A DNA stretch of 64,000 bases, taken from contig NZ_CP031447.1 of NCBI RefSeq assembly GCF_003391095.1, positions 2,976,001-3,040,000 of the forward strand. Direction: 5' to 3'. The position numbers were made by a program, and so were the translations under genes. Position 1 is the stretch's first letter. Every line of letters starts with the position of its first letter. Below the pieces are notes generated by a model. The model saw nothing but the letters and a program-made list of their open reading frames with translations, ran no database searches and was not told the origin of the DNA. This stretch comes from Austwickia chelonae. GTDB lineage: Bacteria > Actinomycetota > Actinomycetes > Actinomycetales > Dermatophilaceae. Positions 5,614-28,958 of the stretch are shown one piece after another.

Positions 5614-7688
5614 TCAGGTCCGTCGTCGCGGGTTTCCGATGGCCAGCAGAAGCGCGCCGGTGGCCATCAGCAGGCAGCCGCCGCCGAGGAGCAGTTCGGT
5701 GGGCACGGTCGTGCCGGAGTGCGGCAGTGTGTCAGCGGCGGGTCGGGCCAGCGCGGTCACCGGTCTGGCCGTGTCGTCGACGCGGGGCTGTCGTGGTGAT
5801 CTTCCCGGGCCTGGGGTGGGCGGTGGGGCTGGCTCGGAGCCGACCGACCCGTTCTCCTCCGGCGGTGGTGGCGGCATCGGCACCGAAGGGTCCGAGGAGG
5901 CCGGGACGGGGACCGGTTCGTCGGTCACCGGTGTCGGTTCGGTGGCATTCGTCGGGGGGATCGGCGCGGAAGACACTGGCGGGTGGGAGGGCACCCAGCT
6001 GTCGGACGGTTCGGGTCGGGGCAGCGGGCGGGGCGCGGTGGGCGGGGGCGTCGTGCTGGTCGGGGGCGTCGTGGGCGGGGTGCTGATGGGCGGTGCTGTG
6101 GTGGTCGAGCTCGTGGTCGGCGGGGTGCTGGTCACACTCGTCGTACTGGTCGGGGGCGTCGTCGTGGGAGCGGTGGTCGGAGGCACGCTCGTGGTCGGGG
6201 GTACGGTCGTGGTCGGGGGTACGGTCGTGGTCGGGGGTACGGTCGTCGTTGTCGTCGTCGGCGGGGGCGTCGCCACTGTCACGAAGCCGAAGTCTAAGGA
6301 GTCGTCACGTTGCCCGTTGGCCGTCAGATCCCCGGATATCGCAGACCAGGTGCTGCTGTCCTTCGTCCGGTCACCGCCGGCCCCGGCGATCGTCGGGGTC
6401 AACCCGGCCAAGGCCTCCGCTGAAGCCGTGCGTTGCACGACCACGGTGTAATACTGCCCGGCTGGCAGCGCGGGTAGCCCGGTGAAGCTGTACCGGCCAT
6501 CCGCGCCGGTGCTCTCCGGGGGGGATCTCGTCGTCGTTGATGTCGTGGGCCGGGTTGCCGTTCTCGTCGAGGATCTCCAGCATCACTCCGGGGATGCCCG
6601 GCTCTCCCGGGTCCTGCACTCCGTTCCGGTTGAGGTCCTTCCACACCAGGTCCCCGACGGTGACGCTGATGCTGCCGACGCCCTGGCCACCGGCTTCGGT
6701 GCGACGCACCGTGTAGACGTCGGCCGGGGAACTGAATCCGGCGGCCTGCATCGACGCGGTGTTCTCGTAGCTCGCGGCCGAGGCCCGGGTGATGGAGGTG
6801 CGCAGGCTGAAGTAGATGTTCTCCCCTGGGTAGATCGCGGGCTCTCCCGGATAGTGACCGGTCAGGGTGATCTGCAACTGGTTCGGCGAGCACGAGGTCA
6901 CGGTGTAAAGCGTCGACGGCAGCCTGGTGGTGTCCGGCACTCCACCTGCAAGGTACTCCCGCTGCCGACCGATCACGCTGGAACAGTCGATGGTGTGCCC
7001 TGGCCCGGGGGTGTCGGTGATCACCACCGGCGAAGCAACACCCTGGACGGGGCCGGTCGGCATGAAGACCCCCCAGACCAACGCCTCCGTGGGTGAGGTG
7101 CTGCCTTCGGAGGAGTCGGCCCAGACCCCCGTCTTGCCGAAGGCCTGTTCGGTGCCGCCCTCGGCGTCGGCGACATGGTCGATCGTGATCGAGTTCGGGA
7201 TCTCGGCGAAGGACAACACGTACGACTTCGTGGTGTTGCGGTCGACGGTCTGCGACCAACTCGCCGAGAAGTACACCGACCCCTTCGTCCCCGAATGGGT
7301 GTCCACATAATCCGTGAGCGTGAAAACAGCCTGGTTGCCGGACCAGACGACCCGGGCGACCAGGGCACCGTCCGGGGCGTGTACGTCGAAGGGTGCGGTG
7401 GAGGTCGCCACGAGTTCCGGTGGCAGGGTCAGGGTGAAGGTGTCTCCGGCGTGCGCGCCCGACGGGATCGTCCATTCGGCGTCCAACCGGGCTGCGCCGC
7501 CGGTCGGCATCTCAGAAGTCGACGAGGTGATCCCCCGTGAACACGCCCGTCAGCACAGCGGCTCGGGCCGGAGCGACTCCCGACCAGGACAGAGCAGCCA
7601 TCAATGCGAAGACCAGACCGAGCAGCCCCGCAACCTGGGAAGCTCGTCGTTCGTCCAACGCCGACCGTTCCTGCCGTGATCCCGTCAT
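5614..7688 (-). pseudogene. Wall-anchored SdrD-like surface protein, split by two frameshifts
   Basis: Three consecutive frames read as one secreted, cell-wall-anchored protein. Part 1 (from ATG 7688, GAGAGG 6 bases upstream) is a signal peptide ending [12 protein letters not shown]. Part 2 (about 7530-6525) is an adhesin-like domain ([19 protein letters not shown]) and the start of an SdrD B-type repeat ([19 protein letters not shown]). Part 3 (about 6518-5614) completes that repeat and continues into a Pro/Thr-rich stalk, a sorting motif LPHSG, a hydrophobic helix and an RRR tail. Deleting one base in a G5 tract (7532-7536, coding strand G) and one in a C7 tract (6518-6524, coding strand C) restores one frame of about 690 codons. 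This may be phase variation, recent inactivation, or homopolymer sequencing error. Confidence 0.75.
6190..6243 (-). repeat. Three 18-bp tandem repeats in the Thr/Pro stalk
   Basis: Three near-identical 18-base units (plus-strand unit cgtggtcgggggtacggt) encode TTTVPP-type hexapeptides in the stalk of the wall-anchored protein. More degenerate copies flank them. Such stalks carry adhesin heads away from the wall and vary in length by slippage. Confidence 0.8.
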
Positions 7689-18794: not shown

Positions 18795-20816
18795 TCAGGC
18801 CTGAAGGCCTGGGGTCAATTGTGAGGCGAAGATCCGCACGTAGTGGCCCTGAAGTGCGACCAACTCCTCGTGACTGCCACTCTCGACGATCTGACCATCG
18901 ACGAGGACGTGGATGACGTCCGTGCGCGCCACCGACGTCAGCCGGTGACTGATCGAGATCAAGGTACGGTCGCCTAGAGCAAAGAAATGGTCGTAGATGG
19001 CCTTTTCTGCCAGCGCGTCAAGGGCCGAGGTGGGTTCGTCAAGAACGATGACCTTGGCATCACGATAGAAGGCCCGCGCCAGGGCCAACCGCTGCCACTG
19101 CCCGCCGGATAGGTCGGTGCCGATCCGACCCTCTTCGTCCTCCATCCAGGGGTCGACGTACGTGTCGAGCCCGTGCGGCAGGGTGCGGACGAAGCCAGCC
19201 AGCTGCGCTTTGTTCAGCGCCTCCCAGATCGACGCTTCATCGACCGGGCGGTCGACGGCTCCCCAGGCGACATTCTCTCGGATCGTGGCAAAGGAGTAGT
19301 GGAGGAAGTCTTGCTTGAGTAGAGCCACCTGAGTGTGCCAGGTCGCTGGTTCACACTCGGCGAGGTCCTGGCCACCAATCAGGACCCGACCCGTCTCTGG
19401 TCGATAGATGCCCAGGATGAGTTTGAGCAGGGTGCTCTTACCGGCCCCGTTCTCCCCGACGAGGGCCACATGATGACCGGCCGGGATCTGCAGACTGATG
19501 TCGCGCAGGACGAGTGGTCGATCCGCCCCAGGGTAACGGAAGGCGACCTTCTCGAGGGTGATGTCCGGCATCGGAGCGGGGACCCGATTGATGGGAGGTG
19601 GGCCGTCATCGAGCTGCATGAAACGTTGGTAGTCGAAGAGATTGACCACATCCTGGTCTACTTCGGCAACAGCCGTCACGAATTGGTTGGCTGCTTCGAT
19701 TGCTCGACGAACCACCTGCTGGACGAAGACGAACTGCCCGAGAGATTGGGTGCCTGCACTGATCCTCAAAGTGACCCACACAAGGGCCCCCACCTCGACC
19801 AGGGCCTCGACTGCATCAGCGAGGAGCCGCTTGAGGATGTACTCGCGTTCCTGATCGAGCCGCTCCCGCTCATCCCGGTCACGCAGGGTGGCCCGCAGTG
19901 CGAGCAGGTGACGTACCAGGCCGTACGAGCGGAGCTCGACGATGGCCTTTGGATGGAGCATTCGCTGCTCGATGCCCACTCGTCGACGTCGGGTCTCGAT
20001 CGTGCCATTCCAGTGAGCCCACTGCTTGCGGGTGAGTTGGAACTGCAGCCACATGCCCGGTGTGACAGCGACCAGGACGGCCAGCGCGAGCCAGGGATTG
20101 ACGATGGCCAGCGCTGCCAGGCTCAGCACGACAGCGATCAACGCGCCGAACAGCACCGCAATCTTGTCGAAGGCCTGGGCAAAGTTCTTGGCGAAGCGGG
20201 CTGCCCGATCATACAGGTCGGCGGTGCTCTTGTCCTCGTACCGCCAGAAGGCAAGGGAGGCGAAGCGGTCGAACATCTTGTCGCTGATGCGGCACTCGAC
20301 GGAGAACACCAGCTTCTGGTGCACGTAGATCGAGATGCTCGACCACAAGGCCGTGAGCAGGCCGACGCCGGCCGTGAGCGTAATGTACACGAAGACTTGG
20401 TCGACCGCCCCGGGCTCCTTGGCGACGACCTGACCGAGAGCGGTCGTCGTGCGAGCGGCGAAGAAGGTGGTCACGATGGGCAGGAGAGCATCGAGAATCG
20501 CGCCGACAATGGCGAGCGTCACCGCCAATGGGGCCGCGGTGAAACTCAGTTTCGCCAGATTGCCCATGGCTCCGAGTCGCTGGATCAGGGTCAGCTCGTC
20601 ACCGTCCAGTTGCTCGATGGCCTCGTCTCCCGACCCGTCGCTGCCCCGCGTATCGTGCGAACTCAATGCAACCGCCGCTACCAGCGACAGGCGAGCTCGC
20701 GCGCCGGGTCTGCCGGGCGATCTCGACCCGACGGACCCGGCGCACAGAGCGGCAGGAGAACGTCGAGTGTACCCAGCACCCAGGTTCCTTGCCCGGGATA
20801 TGAGGCGGCACTCCAT
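18795..20816 (-). CDS. ABC exporter, fused membrane and ATPase domains
   Basis: A 673-residue (at most) ABC exporter half-transporter. The membrane domain spans about residues 85-390, with helices such as FTAAPLAVTLAIVGAILDAL and VLFGALIAVVLSLAALAIV. The ATPase domain (about 420-670) has Walker A GENGAGKST, a Q-loop at LLKQDFLHYS, signature LSGGQWQRLALARA, Walker B AKVIVLDEPTSALD and the His of ISISHRLTSV, all intact. The upper start (20816) lacks a ribosome site and the first about 50 residues are low-quality sequence; a TTG near 20664 (LSSHDTRG) is a plausible alternative. The type resembles peptide/lantibiotic exporters, but no precursor or modifying enzyme is next to it. Confidence 0.85.
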   Translation of the reverse strand: MECRLISRARNLGAGYTRRSPAALCAGSVGSRSPGRPGARARLSLVAAVALSSHDTRGSDGSGDEAIEQLDGDELTLIQRLGAMGNLAKLSFTAAPLAVTLAIVGAILDALLPIVTTFFAARTTTALGQVVAKEPGAVDQVFVYITLTAGVGLLTALWSSISIYVHQKLVFSVECRISDKMFDRFASLAFWRYEDKSTADLYDRAARFAKNFAQAFDKIAVLFGALIAVVLSLAALAIVNPWLALAVLVAVTPGMWLQFQLTRKQWAHWNGTIETRRRRVGIEQRMLHPKAIVELRSYGLVRHLLALRATLRDRDERERLDQEREYILKRLLADAVEALVEVGALVWVTLRISAGTQSLGQFVFVQQVVRRAIEAANQFVTAVAEVDQDVVNLFDYQRFMQLDDGPPPINRVPAPMPDITLEKVAFRYPGADRPLVLRDISLQIPAGHHVALVGENGAGKSTLLKLILGIYRPETGRVLIGGQDLAECEPATWHTQVALLKQDFLHYSFATIRENVAWGAVDRPVDEASIWEALNKAQLAGFVRTLPHGLDTYVDPWMEDEEGRIGTDLSGGQWQRLALARAFYRDAKVIVLDEPTSALDALAEKAIYDHFFALGDRTLISISHRLTSVARTDVIHVLVDGQIVESGSHEELVALQGHYVRIFASQLTPGLQA

Positions 20817-24413: not shown

Positions 24414-24599
24414 ATGAGCGACCAGCAGAACGACTTTGACTTCAACGAGATCACTGACGAAGAAGCCATCATGAGTCACTCCTCGGACAACTCGCGGGCG
24501 GTCGTTAACCCCTCCTCGGACAACTCGCGGGCGGTCGTTAACCCCTCCTCGGACAACTCGCGGGCGGTCGTTAACCCCTCCTCGGACAACTCGCGATGA
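24414..24599 (+). CDS. Candidate RiPP precursor peptide with repeated core
   Basis: A 61-residue peptide built like a multi-core RiPP precursor. Residues 1-22 are an acidic leader-like segment (containing DFDFNEITDEEAI). Then come three perfect copies of the 11-mer SSDNSRAVVNP and a terminal SSDNSR. The repeats are also identical at DNA level (33 bases, including synonymous positions), so they expanded recently. The next genes are an MFS transporter and a 2OG/Fe(II) oxygenase, fitting export and oxidative tailoring, for example hydroxylation of Asn, Asp, Val, Pro or Arg. I recognise no known RiPP class: no Cys, no class-specific leader motif. The alternative is a non-modified repeat protein. 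The ribosome site is weak (AGAAG about 8 bases upstream). Confidence 0.65.
   Translation: MSDQQNDFDFNEITDEEAIMSHSSDNSRAVVNPSSDNSRAVVNPSSDNSRAVVNPSSDNSR
24480..24595 (+). repeat. 33-bp perfect tandem repeats (3 plus partial) in the precursor gene
   Basis: Units at 24480-24512, 24513-24545 and 24546-24578 are identical, followed by the first 17 bases of a fourth that runs into the stop codon. Each unit encodes one 11-residue core. There are no spacers, so this is not a CRISPR array. Confidence 0.97.
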
Positions 24600-24617
24600 T
24601 TCACAGAAAGTAAAAGT

Positions 24618-24650
24618 GAGTGGCGGGGGGTCTGACGTCCCCCGCCACTC
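24618..24650 (+). terminator. Hairpin between precursor and exporter genes
   Basis: GAGTGGCGGGGG and CCCCCGCCACTC arms flank a loop, 18 bases after the precursor stop and 10 before the MFS start. No T-run follows. In peptide clusters such a partial terminator lets the precursor be made in excess over the export and tailoring proteins. It lies where the MFS ribosome site would be, so it could also limit translation. Confidence 0.65.
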
Positions 24651-24659
24651 CCCAATATC

Positions 24660-25835
24660 ATGCCAACAAAATTCACCAGACCCATCCTGCTAGCGGCCAT
24701 CCTGGCATCTTCCGTGTGCTACTTCATGGCCGTTCCTCTAATACCGCTGTACGTAGCGCAGCTAAACCCTCGATCCCCCCTCGCAGGGCCCACTCTCGCC
24801 ATCTCATTCGTCTTAAGCGGACTATTCTCCCCGCTGTGGGGCAAACTGGCTACCAGGTATGGAACTAAGCCAATGCTAATCAGATCATCCTTGATGATCT
24901 GCCTCGCTTATGCTCTGAGCGCTAACGCCACCAGTGTCTCTGGACTCTTCTTATCGAGGTGCCTCGCAGGCGTAGCCTCTGGATTTGTACCCATCGCCTC
25001 AAGCACTCTTGCCCAGCTGAGCACGCCTGAAACAAGAAACCGCGACCTTTCTTGGATAACTTCCTTCCGCACCGGCGGCACCCTCGCCGGCCCAGCCATT
25101 GGTGCGGCTATTGTCTGGTCCACCGGCAGTTATCGAATCACCTTCCTCGCATCGGCGGGGTTGAGCCTCTTCACGCTCAGCGCGGCTCTAATCTCCCCAA
25201 ACATAAAAGTCCAGGATCGGTCAATATCGACCCAACTGCAGACGCGGCACACGACCAAAACTGCGTATTGGATGCCCATCTGTGCCGTTTTCGCTCTAAC
25301 TGTTTCATCCATGCTCCTGGGAACCTGGTTGCCCTTATCATTGTCAAGCAGCTCCAGCGCTATATCTGCTGCTCCAGTTTTAGCGACGATCACGACAGCC
25401 TCGGCCCTCATCACCATGACCCTGGCGCCCTTCTGGGGACAGCTAGCAGACAGGAGGAAGCCTGGCCTCATCCTTATTCTTACGCTCATACTTCCCATTC
25501 CAATTATCCTCGGACTGCTATTTTCGGACAATCACCTCACAGTTGGATTTCTTATCATAGCGGCCTCGGCTGTCGGCGCGGACACCATCGGATTGCTCTC
25601 CGCGGAGACGACCAAAAAGCTAGCCGAACAGGACATCGCTCCTTTCTTCGGATGGACCAACACTGCAACGCAATATGGCAATGCATTAGGAGCTGGCCTC
25701 GCTCCTATCGCGATGGGAATGTGGACTCAACTTCCTATTGTTCTTTCAGTGGCGCTCGATTTACTTTCGGTGCTTATTATTTTTATTTTCTTAAAATCTG
25801 GAGCGGATGGACAGTATGCATCTAGAGGCGAATAA
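24660..25835 (+). CDS. MFS exporter of the peptide cluster
   Basis: A 391-residue, 12-helix major facilitator. The N-terminal half has the motif-A-like loop LSGLFSPLWGKLATRYGTKP between helices 2 and 3. A second copy, TLAPFWGQLADRRKPGLIL, is in the C-terminal half, as in DHA1-type drug/peptide exporters. GTLAGPAIGAAI in helix 5 resembles antiporter motif C. Codons are visibly less GC-biased than the chromosome. The start ATG directly follows the hairpin. Its placement between precursor and oxygenase suggests it exports the mature peptide; a general drug exporter is the alternative. Confidence 0.85.
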   Translation: MPTKFTRPILLAAILASSVCYFMAVPLIPLYVAQLNPRSPLAGPTLAISFVLSGLFSPLWGKLATRYGTKPMLIRSSLMICLAYALSANATSVSGLFLSRCLAGVASGFVPIASSTLAQLSTPETRNRDLSWITSFRTGGTLAGPAIGAAIVWSTGSYRITFLASAGLSLFTLSAALISPNIKVQDRSISTQLQTRHTTKTAYWMPICAVFALTVSSMLLGTWLPLSLSSSSSAISAAPVLATITTASALITMTLAPFWGQLADRRKPGLILILTLILPIPIILGLLFSDNHLTVGFLIIAASAVGADTIGLLSAETTKKLAEQDIAPFFGWTNTATQYGNALGAGLAPIAMGMWTQLPIVLSVALDLLSVLIIFIFLKSGADGQYASRGE

Positions 25836-26415
25836 CAGCCCATTCCTGTGGGCGCTGGGAAGGAACGTCCTCCCCGTTGAGTGCACTAAAGCACTGGTGG
25901 CATACCTAGACCACTTCGGCGCCTGGGTGCCGTCAAAAAGTGCGATTGCCCGCAACTCCGCTTACTATCTAAATTCGCAGGAAATACTCACGCCGCCAGG
26001 CTTGCGTATTGCGGTGGCCACCCTAACCCCATCTATCGAGGCTAGTGTTGCCTCCGCTTTTAAGATTGAAGCGCTCACAACAAGTCAGGTGATGTTGAAC
26101 CGTTGGCTTCCCGGCGATTATGCACACCCTCACACGGATGCAATGGGTGACCCTTCAAATCCGCATTATTTCTCACATCGAGCCCTGTTGTATTTGACGC
26201 CCACCGAAAAGCAGTTAGCTGGGGGAGATCTTGTTCTTCACGGCGCCTCCGAACTCGACCCCACTACTCGTCGCATTCGCCCGGACTGCAACACGCTGGC
26301 CGCCCTTGCTATGTCCCCCGAATCCGTCCACTCGGTCGATAAGATCGTTTCAGGAACACGGTATTCCATCGTATGGAGCTTGAGGCCAAGCACAACAGAT
26401 AGGAATGTTTCATGA
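25807..26415 (+). CDS. 2-oxoglutarate/Fe(II)-dependent oxygenase
   Basis: A 202-residue protein with the double-stranded beta-helix signature of P4Hc/2OG-FeII oxygenases. The metal ligands are H-x-D in YAHPHTDAMGD (about residues 105-115) and a distal His in SPESVHSVDKI. The co-substrate Arg follows in SGTRYSIVWSL. RALLYLTPTEKQLAGGDLVL is the usual 'yLn..w..GGel.l' strand. It overlaps the MFS gene by about 29 bases (or 20 if the ATG at 25816 is used), so the two are co-translated. In this setting it is the candidate enzyme that hydroxylates or otherwise oxidises the repeat peptide cores. GC is low like its neighbours. Confidence 0.8.
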   Translation: MDSMHLEANNSPFLWALGRNVLPVECTKALVAYLDHFGAWVPSKSAIARNSAYYLNSQEILTPPGLRIAVATLTPSIEASVASAFKIEALTTSQVMLNRWLPGDYAHPHTDAMGDPSNPHYFSHRALLYLTPTEKQLAGGDLVLHGASELDPTTRRIRPDCNTLAALAMSPESVHSVDKIVSGTRYSIVWSLRPSTTDRNVS

Positions 26416-26550
26416 ACAGCGAGTCGCAGCAACTCCCAGTCGAACTGTGGCAGATGGCCGCGGGGGTGGCCCTCGATTCCAAACCGGACCGCTTGACTAT
26501 GTATGTACGCGAGACGGGACGCATGTTTTCTATGACCGGAATCGCAGCTT
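26412..26550 (+). pseudogene. Gene of the peptide cluster truncated by IS30
   Basis: The ATG overlaps the oxygenase stop (ATGA), so this was the next gene of the same operon. About 46 codons remain, starting MNSESQQLPVELWQMAAGVA and ending with METGRMFSMTGIA-like sequence at the IS30 left end (26551). The remnant has no recognisable motif. Its product was presumably another tailoring, protease or immunity protein. Confidence 0.55.
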
Positions 26551-27636
26551 GGTGTAAATGGGTCAGTGCCTCGCCTGGGATGATCTGGGGGTTCCTGGGT
26601 GGAGAGGGTGTTGTGGGTGCGTGGTCGGGCGTTGTCGTTGGTGGAGCGGGAGGAGATCTCGCGGGGTATCGCGGTGGGTGAGTCGGGTCGGGTGATCGCG
26701 GCCAGATTGGGTCGTGATCATGGGGTGGTCAATCGTGAGATCGCTCGCTGTGGTGGCCGGTCACAGTACCGGGGACACTGCGCACAGGAGCTGGCGCGGG
26801 TGCGTGCCCGCCGGGCGAAGCTGCGCAAGGTTGAGACCTGCCCGGCGTTGTTGGAGCTGGTGAACGCTGGCCTGGGTCAGGGGTGGTCGCCGCGCCAGAT
26901 CGCGGGACGACTGGTCAAAGACCATCCCGAGCGGCCACAGTGGCAGGTGTCCCACGAAGCGATCTATCAAGCGTTGTACTGCCAGGCCCGCGGGCAACTG
27001 CGAGTCGAGCTCAAGGGTGTCCTGCGCCGTGGCGGTACCGCCAGGGTCAGCCGGGCCCAGCGGGCTGCGATCAGTGCAGGCAGAGAAGCGATCCTGGACA
27101 AGGTCATGATCAGCGAACGACCCGCCGAGGCCGAGGACCGGGCTGTGCCCGGACACTGGGAAGGCGACCTCGTCATGGGCGCGGGGAACCGCTCGGCGGT
27201 CATCACTCTGGTCGAACGCACCAGCCGCTACGTCATCCTGCAACGCCTGCCCTATGACCACAGTGCGCCCCGCGTGGCGTTCTTCCTCTCCCAAGCGATG
27301 AGTCGGCTGCCCGCTCTGTTGCGCCGGTCCCTGACCTGGGACCAAGGCCGCGAAATGGCCCGACACGCCACGTTCACCATCAATACCGGCATCCCCGTGT
27401 TCTTCGCTGACCCCCACTCACCCTGGCAACGCGGTAGCAACGAGAACATCAACGGCCTCCTACGCCAATACCTCCCCAAAGGAACCGACCTGTCCACCCA
27501 CACACAAACCGACCTCGACAACATCGCCTACCTCCTCAACGGGCGCCCCCGCGAAACCCTCGACTTCGACACTCCCGCCGAAAAACTCGATACAATCCTC
27601 ACTCAAGCAGGCGAGGCACTCACCGGTTGATACCGC
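26551..27636 (+). mobile_element. IS30-family element
   Basis: About 1086 bases with inverted ends sharing GTGCCTCGCCTG. The left end starts GGTGTAAATGGGTCA and the right end, read inward, starts GCGGTATCAACCGGTGA. One intact transposase gene fills it. It interrupts the peptide operon on the left and abuts a secreted-protein gene whose signal peptide is incomplete on the right. Confidence 0.8.
26599..27630 (+). CDS. IS30-family transposase
   Basis: A 343-residue transposase that appears complete. The N-terminal HTH is IS30-like (LSLVEREEISRGIAVGESGR, VIAARLGRDHGVVNREIAR). The C-terminal DDE core has VPGHWEGDLVMGAGNRSAVI (first Asp), SLTWDQGREMARH (second Asp) and SPWQRGSNENINGLLRQYLP (Glu), the classical IS30 ending. 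GTG start at 26599. The gene has normal high-GC codon use, unlike the AT-richer genes it split, so it arrived later. Confidence 0.92.
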   Translation: MERVLWVRGRALSLVEREEISRGIAVGESGRVIAARLGRDHGVVNREIARCGGRSQYRGHCAQELARVRARRAKLRKVETCPALLELVNAGLGQGWSPRQIAGRLVKDHPERPQWQVSHEAIYQALYCQARGQLRVELKGVLRRGGTARVSRAQRAAISAGREAILDKVMISERPAEAEDRAVPGHWEGDLVMGAGNRSAVITLVERTSRYVILQRLPYDHSAPRVAFFLSQAMSRLPALLRRSLTWDQGREMARHATFTINTGIPVFFADPHSPWQRGSNENINGLLRQYLPKGTDLSTHTQTDLDNIAYLLNGRPRETLDFDTPAEKLDTILTQAGEALTG

Positions 27637-27666
27637 CCTGTTACCGGTGGATTGATTACCACTGCA

Positions 27667-28245
27667 ATGATTTTTGGGTCTATTGGATCTGCATCTGCTA
27701 TCCCAATGGGAGAGCGCCATAGCGACATCTCTTCTCAGCCTGCATCTGCTCCATCGGCCAATGAGATAGAACTAGCAAAGCGTTTCGAGGAAGGGTTCCG
27801 GGTTCTCTTTACGGAAGTTATCATTCAGAGCCCTTCGGGAACCTGGTCTGTCAGCGAGAAGGGGCTTGCTAAGCACCCTGATATTTCCAGGTCAGGTGCC
27901 ATCTCCGTCGCTTCTGCAATGAACGGTCCAGAAGGACTTGCAGGTGCTGTACGCGCAGGAGCCTCCGCTGGATCGATAAACTTTGATGAGCCTGTAATTA
28001 CTACTCATGGCGCAACAGACTATGCAAAATGTGTTCTTAAAGGAGTTGTCCCTGGGGGACTCATTGCATTCCTTGACTGGAGGGCTATTTCTAGTATGAT
28101 CCAGCAGAAAGCTTGGCCTAAGCTCGGGCTTTACATCGGAAAGCATGCCGCTAAGCATGGCATGAAAGACGCTGTTAAACTTACTCCTGGCGGGCTGGCT
28201 CTCAGTGTAATTGGGTCAGCAGCAGGGTGTGCTGTTTGGGGATGA
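27667..28245 (+). CDS. Secreted protein with hydrophobic C-terminus (possible bacteriocin-like), 5' end doubtful
   Basis: About 192 residues starting MIFGSIGSASAIPMGE, which looks like the last part of a signal peptide ending at an AxA site. The usual charged and hydrophobic start is missing because the IS30 end lies only 30 bases upstream. A polar middle follows. The C-terminal third has two cysteines and glycine-rich amphipathic stretches (AKCVLKGVVPGGLIAFLDW and LTPGGLALSVIGSAAGCAVW), a pattern seen in actinobacterial secreted proteins of unknown role and reminiscent of membrane-active bacteriocins. It overlaps the next, membrane-protein, gene by ATGA. Low GC. Confidence 0.5.
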   Translation: MIFGSIGSASAIPMGERHSDISSQPASAPSANEIELAKRFEEGFRVLFTEVIIQSPSGTWSVSEKGLAKHPDISRSGAISVASAMNGPEGLAGAVRAGASAGSINFDEPVITTHGATDYAKCVLKGVVPGGLIAFLDWRAISSMIQQKAWPKLGLYIGKHAAKHGMKDAVKLTPGGLALSVIGSAAGCAVWG

Positions 28246-28640
28246 TAACTATGACTATCGGTAGACGTAGAGGATTCGGAGAAATATTCTGCTTTGGGAT
28301 TGCGTCAGCTTCTGCGTTGATGGTAAGCATCTCTGACTCAAACCCAGCATGGATGATTTGTGCTTTTCTTTCAGCTGTTGCCTATTCTGGAGTGGTATAC
28401 AGGGCACTAAAGGACGACGCGGATAGCATCCAAGAAAGAAATCACGTCTACTTCAACAATCGAGCTCGATTGTTTGTTGCAGCCATTCTATGCGCTTTTA
28501 CTCCATGGTATAGGCCCATGGGACTGATTATCGCCGCAGTAGAATGTGGATTCTTGATATCGATCATCTATCGAGTGTTCAAGAACGAGGATGGAGAGCC
28601 TCGAGCAGGGAAGGGGTTGCGCCTAATGGGCGATGTCTGA
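28242..28640 (+). CDS. Small membrane protein coupled to the secreted protein
   Basis: A 132-residue protein with about four hydrophobic segments: IFCFGIASASALMVSIS, AWMICAFLSAVAYSGVVY, LFVAAILCAFTPWY and MGLIIAAVECGFLISIIY. Its start overlaps the preceding stop (ATGA), so production is tied to that secreted protein. The pairing suggests an immunity or anchoring partner, but nothing in the sequence proves it. No family recognised; low-GC codon use. Confidence 0.6.
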   Translation: MITMTIGRRRGFGEIFCFGIASASALMVSISDSNPAWMICAFLSAVAYSGVVYRALKDDADSIQERNHVYFNNRARLFVAAILCAFTPWYRPMGLIIAAVECGFLISIIYRVFKNEDGEPRAGKGLRLMGDV

Positions 28641-28733
28641 ACATTACAGAAATGATGGGATTTCGCTTCTCACTTTGCTGAGATTTAAATCTCACATATC
28701 TCTTTAATCAGGTCTCTTGCCTCATATCTAATT

Positions 28734-28781
28734 CAATGGAGCGGGATTACCAAGCCGTAGCTTGGTAATCCCGCTCCATTG
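28734..28781 (+). terminator. Hairpin with 21-base perfect arms
   Basis: caatggagcgggattaccaa(g) and its exact complement flank a 6-base loop (ccgtag). It lies 94 bases after the small membrane protein gene and ends that transcription unit; lack of a T-run is in line with other hairpins of this window. Confidence 0.75.
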
Positions 28782-28958
28782 AGGGATCTTCGGACTTGAG
28801 CGTGGGTTGAGTACGGTGGCGTGCTCGATGCCGGGACGGGGGTAGGGGTCGAGGTCCCTGGCAGTATCAGAGGACTTCTACCCCCTCTGTTCGCCAAGCA
28901 CCTCGACTGTGCCTGACTCTACTTCGCTGTGCTCTCCTGCCGGATCATGCTCGTCGTG

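Follow-up and report, generated by a model that had tools for sequence, protein, structure and literature searches.

A compact gene run on the forward strand of the Austwickia chelonae genome, combining a peptide gene with perfect internal repeats, an MFS transporter gene and a 2OG/Fe(II) oxygenase gene, probably forms a RiPP-like pathway, in which the repeats would be hydroxylated and the product then exported. We infer the modification, the target residue, the cleavage and the export. In favour of this reading are the perfect repeats behind an acidic leader, the compact run of genes with a common low GC content, the same gene order in the sister species Austwickia sp. TVS 96-490-7B, the kinship of the oxygenase to YhhC, its intact iron- and 2OG-binding residues, and a fold group that contains peptide hydroxylases. 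The reading is weakened by the single intact example among the searched data, the decayed copy in TVS 96-490-7B that has no repeats, the absence of the segment ETDFYEQ and an identity of at most 24% to the oxygenase relatives, an MFS transporter of generic efflux-like character, and an operon cut by an IS30 element. A. chelonae is a reptile skin pathogen (PMC6256576). Its genome comprises 3,631,970 bases, the contig under study 3,628,119 bases, and the window, i.e., the whole stretch of DNA analysed, 64,000 bases.

Gene run, repeat peptide and flanking elements

The order on the forward strand is precursor-like ORF, hairpin, MFS gene, oxygenase gene, short ORF and IS30 element (Table 1), and transposase genes of the IS3 and IS30 types lie on either side of the cassette. 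Overlapping genes of shared low GC had been claimed in the initial annotation, and both features were recovered: the MFS and oxygenase genes overlap by 29 nt, or by less if the oxygenase starts at the later ATG at 25816, the oxygenase gene and the short ORF at 26412 overlap by 4 nt, and the GC content of the cassette genes is 0.535-0.59 versus 0.664 for the window.

Table 1. Coordinates of the cassette features in the window
Feature	Position	Strand	Basis or remark
Putative precursor, acidic leader-like portion	24414..24479	+	MSDQQNDFDFNEITDEEAIMSH; ORF
Repeat region, 3x SSDNSRAVVNP + SSDNSR	24480..24596, stop codon 24597-24599	+	TRF
Hairpin between precursor and MFS genes, without T-run	~24618-24650	+	fold energy
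MFS transporter, predicted exporter	24660..25835	+	PF07690 2.3e-28
2OG/Fe(II) oxygenase, distant YhhC relative	25807..26415	+	PF13640 3.5e-7; NF041706 2.5e-14
5' end (47 codons) of another ORF, truncated by IS30	26412..26552	+	4-nt overlap with oxygenase gene
IS30-family insertion ending the operon	26553..27634, ends approximate	+	NF033563 2.9e-79

The ORF 24414-24599 encodes 61 aa, MSDQQNDFDFNEITDEEAIMSH followed by three perfect SSDNSRAVVNP units and a final SSDNSR, in agreement with the initial annotation, which had also seen the acidic, leader-like character of the first half (computed pI 4.05). On the DNA level the repeat has a 33-nt period and 3.5 copies with 100% matches over 117 nt, 24479-24595 (TRF), and a lag-33 identity run of 84 bases; the perfect DNA repeat places the identical 11 residues in every unit. 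A chance or artefactual origin of the repeat was ruled out by this period, copy number and match rate. The core contains the residues S, N, V, D, R, A and P only, without any aromatic residue, and presents one Pro per full unit, the final unit stopping at SSDNSR without Pro. When the window was filtered for perfect tandem repeats (period 12-89, at least 40 bases and at least 1.5 periods), one other run passed beyond the precursor repeat in the 64 kb, an 18-nt repeat at 6189-6246. The TRF entry for this 18-nt repeat spans window positions 6173-6246 with 4.1 copies and 94% matches.

The hairpin that had been annotated after the precursor gene is a strong fold with -27.9 kcal/mol and a z of -3.19, and one of 200 shuffles was equally good. 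It was not listed in the terminator scan of the sequence and has no T-run, hence it is possibly an attenuation or RNA-processing element. Such a strong hairpin directly behind the repeat ORF would suit an explanation in which the oxygenase and the MFS transporter make a small molecule and export it, or confer resistance against it, and translation of the repeat ORF, serving as a regulatory leader, governs expression of the genes behind it by way of the hairpin. We consider this explanation quite improbable: a conserved acidic N-terminus and 3.5 identical 11-residue units would serve no obvious purpose in a regulatory ORF, and the missing T-run argues against it as well.

The run ends at the IS30 copy, whose inverted-repeat arms are located at 26551-26577 and 27608-27634. 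The ORF at 26412 that it cuts had no Pfam or NCBIfam family match, and none of the other 185 genomes of the family contained a relative at E <= 0.01. Since this ORF is cut, the cassette may be incomplete, and the operon may be incomplete or inactive. By eye the ORF resembled a PqqD-like recognition domain; this candidate was rejected, as it ranked 983rd among itself and 5000 shuffles, a weak test with 47 codons. The PqqD-region profile was built from 24 of 30 loci, leaving out four that were too short and two without a readable frame, and one of the 24 sequences (L023) was read on the wrong strand. No PqqD was found in the A. chelonae genome at E <= 1e-6. A protease or recognition domain for the cassette was not identified, the genome-wide search covering PqqD alone.

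Right of the IS30 copy lies a gene for a small protein that looks secreted by eye (27652-28245, forward strand), with a weak match to the EntV bacteriocin family of 17.6 bits against a cut-off of 130; its 5' end is perhaps cut by IS30. A hydrophobic ORF overlaps it (28227-28640, forward strand) and could encode its immunity protein. The GC content of this pair (27652-28640) is low, 0.45-0.54, and a perfect 23-bp inverted repeat with a 4-nt loop at 28733-28782 is perhaps the terminator behind it.

The oxygenase, its fold and its distribution

The oxygenase is most likely a diverged YhhC-type enzyme. The only significant NCBIfam match was NF041706 (2OG_matur_YhhC) with 53.4 bits, and oxygenase residues 8-192 aligned to positions 2-180 of the 182 in this profile, almost its full length. 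With 53.4 bits against the NCBI cut-off of 150, identity as a YhhC equivalog was ruled out. The earlier assignment as a 2OG/Fe(II) oxygenase with HxD, distal His and Arg is well founded, given the PF13640 match and the conservation of H109, D111, H175 and R185, which were identical in all 57 sequences of the alignment. Identity to the 56 aligned relatives was at most 24%; local BLAST identities reached 33%, over one third of the oxygenase length. The segment ETDFYEQ, exact in 47 of these relatives, is absent from the A. chelonae protein; as a YhhC signature it is an observation from the present alignment.

The predicted structure (pLDDT 87.9) has a prolyl-4-hydroxylase-type fold, a double-stranded beta-helix carrying the HxD...H triad and the 2OG-binding Arg, and P. 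putida P4H, Tpa1, OGFOD1 and PHD2 were among the top matches. Peptide and protein hydroxylases belong to this fold group. The closest solved structure was PolD, an enzyme of polyoxin biosynthesis, and the small-molecule enzymes PolD and PasI were among the best neighbours, thus the fold does not demonstrate a peptide substrate. Both PolD and the resemblance of the transporter to multidrug and tetracycline efflux families would fit small-molecule chemistry with a regulatory repeat ORF, but a ribosomal peptide is the substrate of the curated family closest to the oxygenase. Judged by sequence, the run appears to join a precursor-like peptide with a modifying enzyme, a 2OG oxygenase with kinship to a RiPP oxygenase.

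Close relatives of the oxygenase were absent from all collections searched at the following thresholds. A word-based search of 5.8 billion proteins gave 195 candidates, among which the oxygenase itself was the only one at E <= 1e-5. It was found in its own genome only among 186 genomes of the family (E <= 1e-6) and, with profile A1, among 396 genomes of the phylum (E <= 1e-4). Profile A4 retrieved from 333 genomes of the class the A. chelonae protein plus five weak matches, none above 34.9 bits, which sit inside longer frames of 295-426 aa. Relatives were present in none of 79 pattern stretches from GTDB genome contigs, in none of eight stretches from viral contigs and in no phages; the plasmid search yielded one match, a Vibrio YhhC. 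A profile made from the oxygenase and the Vibrio YhhC matched 264 proteins, the best 120 of which were listed.

The transporter and the locus in the sister species

The transporter claim stands on the PF07690 match, and the NCBIfam matches point to generic drug-efflux families (multidrug, tetracycline). Its closest relatives, with 54-64% identity, were confined to Austwickia, followed by proteins of 40-46% identity on metagenome contigs. At E <= 1e-30 the search of the protein collection, with 7998 candidates scored, returned six MFS proteins: two from the own genome, one from the sister species and three from metagenome contigs. Two of 186 family genomes held the transporter at E <= 1e-40, the own genome with two copies and one of the same genus, and it was absent at this threshold from the two other genomes of the genus. 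Among 396 genomes of the order it was present at E <= 1e-35 in the own genome only; the sister species did not appear in this search, either because it was not sampled or because the initial screening step passed it over. None of seven viral contig stretches matched the MFS relative P0125.

The second copy in the A. chelonae genome (L009:7845-9011; C1, about 2491844-2493010) is 56% identical to the cassette transporter. An acyl-CoA dehydrogenase gene (PF00441 2.9e-49) lies directly upstream. A tblastn search of this locus gave no leader match among the matches listed, and the best oxygenase match, with an E of 0.36, was located inside the MFS gene itself. From its sequence context this is an orphan copy without a convincing precursor or oxygenase alongside. 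Directly behind it, a stretch resembles by eye an IS30 remnant, without a Pfam match.

Elsewhere in the window, the reverse strand encodes at 18795-20816 an ABC transporter permease/ATPase. Exporters of peptides and bacteriocins are among its NCBIfam matches, those listed all scoring far below the cut-off.

Export of a small ribosomal peptide by an MFS transporter is known from microcin C, a heptapeptide with an adenylating modification enzyme and the MFS exporter MccC. The A. chelonae cassette is alike in the combination of peptide and MFS transporter and differs from microcin C, which has no oxygenase and no repeats.

In Austwickia sp. TVS 96-490-7B, a leader-bearing ORF, an MFS gene and an oxygenase remnant follow each other in the same order as in A. 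chelonae, and this shared order makes common descent of the three genes as a unit most likely. The ORF in front of the MFS gene has 36 residues, MSDKQDDIHFDCNEIADPEMAKNLSSELALIRRICE, lacks the repeats and has no Pro after SS. The part kept comprises the first 17 residues of the A. chelonae leader, with the common motif MSDxQxD..FDxNEIxD. The comparison of its leader with that of A. chelonae scored 51; none of 10000 shuffles reached this value (maximum 39), and the match was the best of 3150 six-frame windows in the 19-kb stretch. A leader search at E <= 0.01 had not returned this copy, which was found by its position. The DNA around the ORF also aligns to A. chelonae. Over 24 aligned codons we observed 6, 7 and 12 differences at codon positions 1, 2 and 3, and 5 codons had changed silently and 10 non-silently.

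The transporter of TVS 96-490-7B is 62% identical and split over two reading frames. Directly behind it, one of the three frames matched oxygenase residues 18-103 with a score of 60, compared to a maximum of 56 in 5000 shuffles, and in a separate run none of 300 shuffles was as good; this window was the best of 624, the next (55) overlapping it and the best elsewhere scoring 46. The tblastn E value was 0.28 in a three-sequence database. On the DNA level the downstream stretch scored 25 against the oxygenase gene, a value equalled by 275 of 500 shuffles. We read this stretch, from the frame comparison, as a broken oxygenase remnant, at best a fragment. No trace of the ORF at 26412 was seen in it, and the next ORF of at least 150 aa is on the opposite strand. 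The TVS 96-490-7B cassette is decayed. The acidic leader is kept, with a differing downstream part, in one relative that is itself decayed. For the earlier interpretation as a RiPP cluster the outcome is mixed: the gene order in the sister species and YhhC as the nearest curated family speak for it, the absence of repeats in that species speaks against it.

Proposed pathway and comparison with known systems

The closest comparison is to the YhhA/YhhB/YhhC triceptides. In the one Vibrio YhhC locus examined, YhhC adjoins its precursor and a radical SAM maturase, and the precursor YhhA carries YDR and HNR motifs and has no Pro in its C-terminal part. In the work of Sugiyama et al. 2022, YhhC is said to be a beta-hydroxylase acting inside rings made by YhhB. 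In both systems a short precursor lies next to a 2OG/Fe(II) oxygenase, the two enzymes being equal in size and having a common HxD...H...R site. They differ in that the A. chelonae oxygenase scores 53 bits against a cut-off of 150, lacks ETDFYEQ and is at most 24% identical, and that the A. chelonae system has neither a SPASM radical SAM enzyme nor aromatic core residues. A search for SPASM (PF13186) gave no match in the A. chelonae genome at E <= 0.001, with 8 of 14 control genomes positive. According to PMC11002830, YhhB links Tyr or His to the C-beta of Arg, and the three-residue core motif of triceptides needs an aromatic residue. The cassette does not encode a triceptide, since its core has no aromatic residue and the genome no SPASM match at this threshold.

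Two further systems share single traits. In the Tvg cluster of Halomonas anticariensis, as described in PMC11002830, polycyclopropylglycine peptides arise from TVGG repeats by the radical SAM enzyme TvgB. By that description the cluster resembles the present one in combining transporters and an iron/alpha-ketoglutarate enzyme with a precursor that bears repeats, whereas modification by TvgB and the placement of TvgC under IPR018724 set the cluster apart. PMC13097080 describes SmaO/SmaX, in which an oxygenase introduces a beta-hydroxyl group on Asp of a linear RiPP precursor in a graspetide cluster. By this account it is a precedent for Asp hydroxylation on a linear precursor, and it differs by a graspetide synthetase in its cluster, none being seen in the A. 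chelonae gene run.

In the pathway we propose, the oxygenase would be recruited by docking, probably on the acidic leader (MSDxQxD..FDxNEIxD), since the first 17 residues of this leader are kept in TVS 96-490-7B. The diverged YhhC-type enzyme would then hydroxylate one residue per unit with Fe(II), O2 and 2-oxoglutarate, adding +16 Da per unit, which would shift the [M+H]+ of the 11-mer from 1145.555 to 1161.549. A putative protease would remove the leader and might also cut the units apart, and export of the product would fall to the MFS transporter; an action on competing bacteria is a guess. The likeliest target would be the beta-carbon of Asp or Asn in SSDNSR. These residues are our first guess because Asp or Asn stands between the ring residues in the Vibrio YDR and HNR motifs, and by this analogy an Asp or Asn adjoining Arg is a plausible target of a YhhC-type enzyme. 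The main alternative within the same pathway is the Pro of AVVNP, preceded by Asn, which would give a hydroxyproline-containing repeat peptide. The prolyl-4-hydroxylase-type fold with P. putida P4H, Tpa1, OGFOD1 and PHD2 among its top matches and the single Pro in each full unit are in line with such a target. It is nevertheless unlikely, with a last unit that ends before the Pro, and with Pro missing both from the C-terminal portion of YhhA in Vibrio and after SS in the TVS 96-490-7B ORF.

The locus may instead be the remnant of a larger RiPP pathway, in which the gene cut at 26412 and further genes since lost would have encoded the class-defining enzyme, with the oxygenase as an accessory and the locus inactive or its product incomplete, an explanation that overlaps partly with the preferred one. 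The IS30 copy in a gene overlapping the oxygenase gene by 4 nt, the decay in TVS 96-490-7B and the radical SAM gene next to the Vibrio YhhC would be expected from such a loss. We regard it as rather unlikely, because none of the leader, MFS and oxygenase ORFs is broken in A. chelonae, a SPASM maturase was not found in the genome, and the core offers no aromatic residue for a cyclophane; the opposite orientation of the next ORF of at least 150 aa in TVS 96-490-7B counts in the same direction, though genes may have been lost there.

Retaining the RiPP-like reading, we regard the locus as a variation on a known theme, in which a diverged YhhC-type oxygenase is the candidate tailoring enzyme and a second maturase was not seen. 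The initial annotation could assign neither this core nor a lone 2OG oxygenase paired with an MFS transporter to any RiPP class. For the lone oxygenase this holds only for the locus in its present state, because the IS30 copy cuts off the next gene. That the cassette represents a new class is possible, if doubtful; such a class would have as its sole tailoring enzyme a YhhC-type hydroxylase parted from its radical SAM partner, a leader with FDxNEIxD guiding the beta-hydroxylation of Asp or Asn in each unit, and a dedicated MFS transporter. We do not call it a new class, since there is one intact example, known from sequence, and the cut gene at the operon end may have encoded another enzyme. 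Among the papers listed from the mainly open-access literature on RiPP 2OG oxygenases and repeats, on triceptides and YhhC, and on Austwickia, no description of the cluster was recognised.

Action of the oxygenase on the unmodified repeats would, if true, show that a YhhC-type hydroxylase does not depend on a cyclophane formed beforehand. If the proposed pathway is true, precursor, MFS exporter and one oxygenase constitute a very small RiPP architecture, one that escapes RiPP mining keyed on radical SAM enzymes, P450 or recognition domains.
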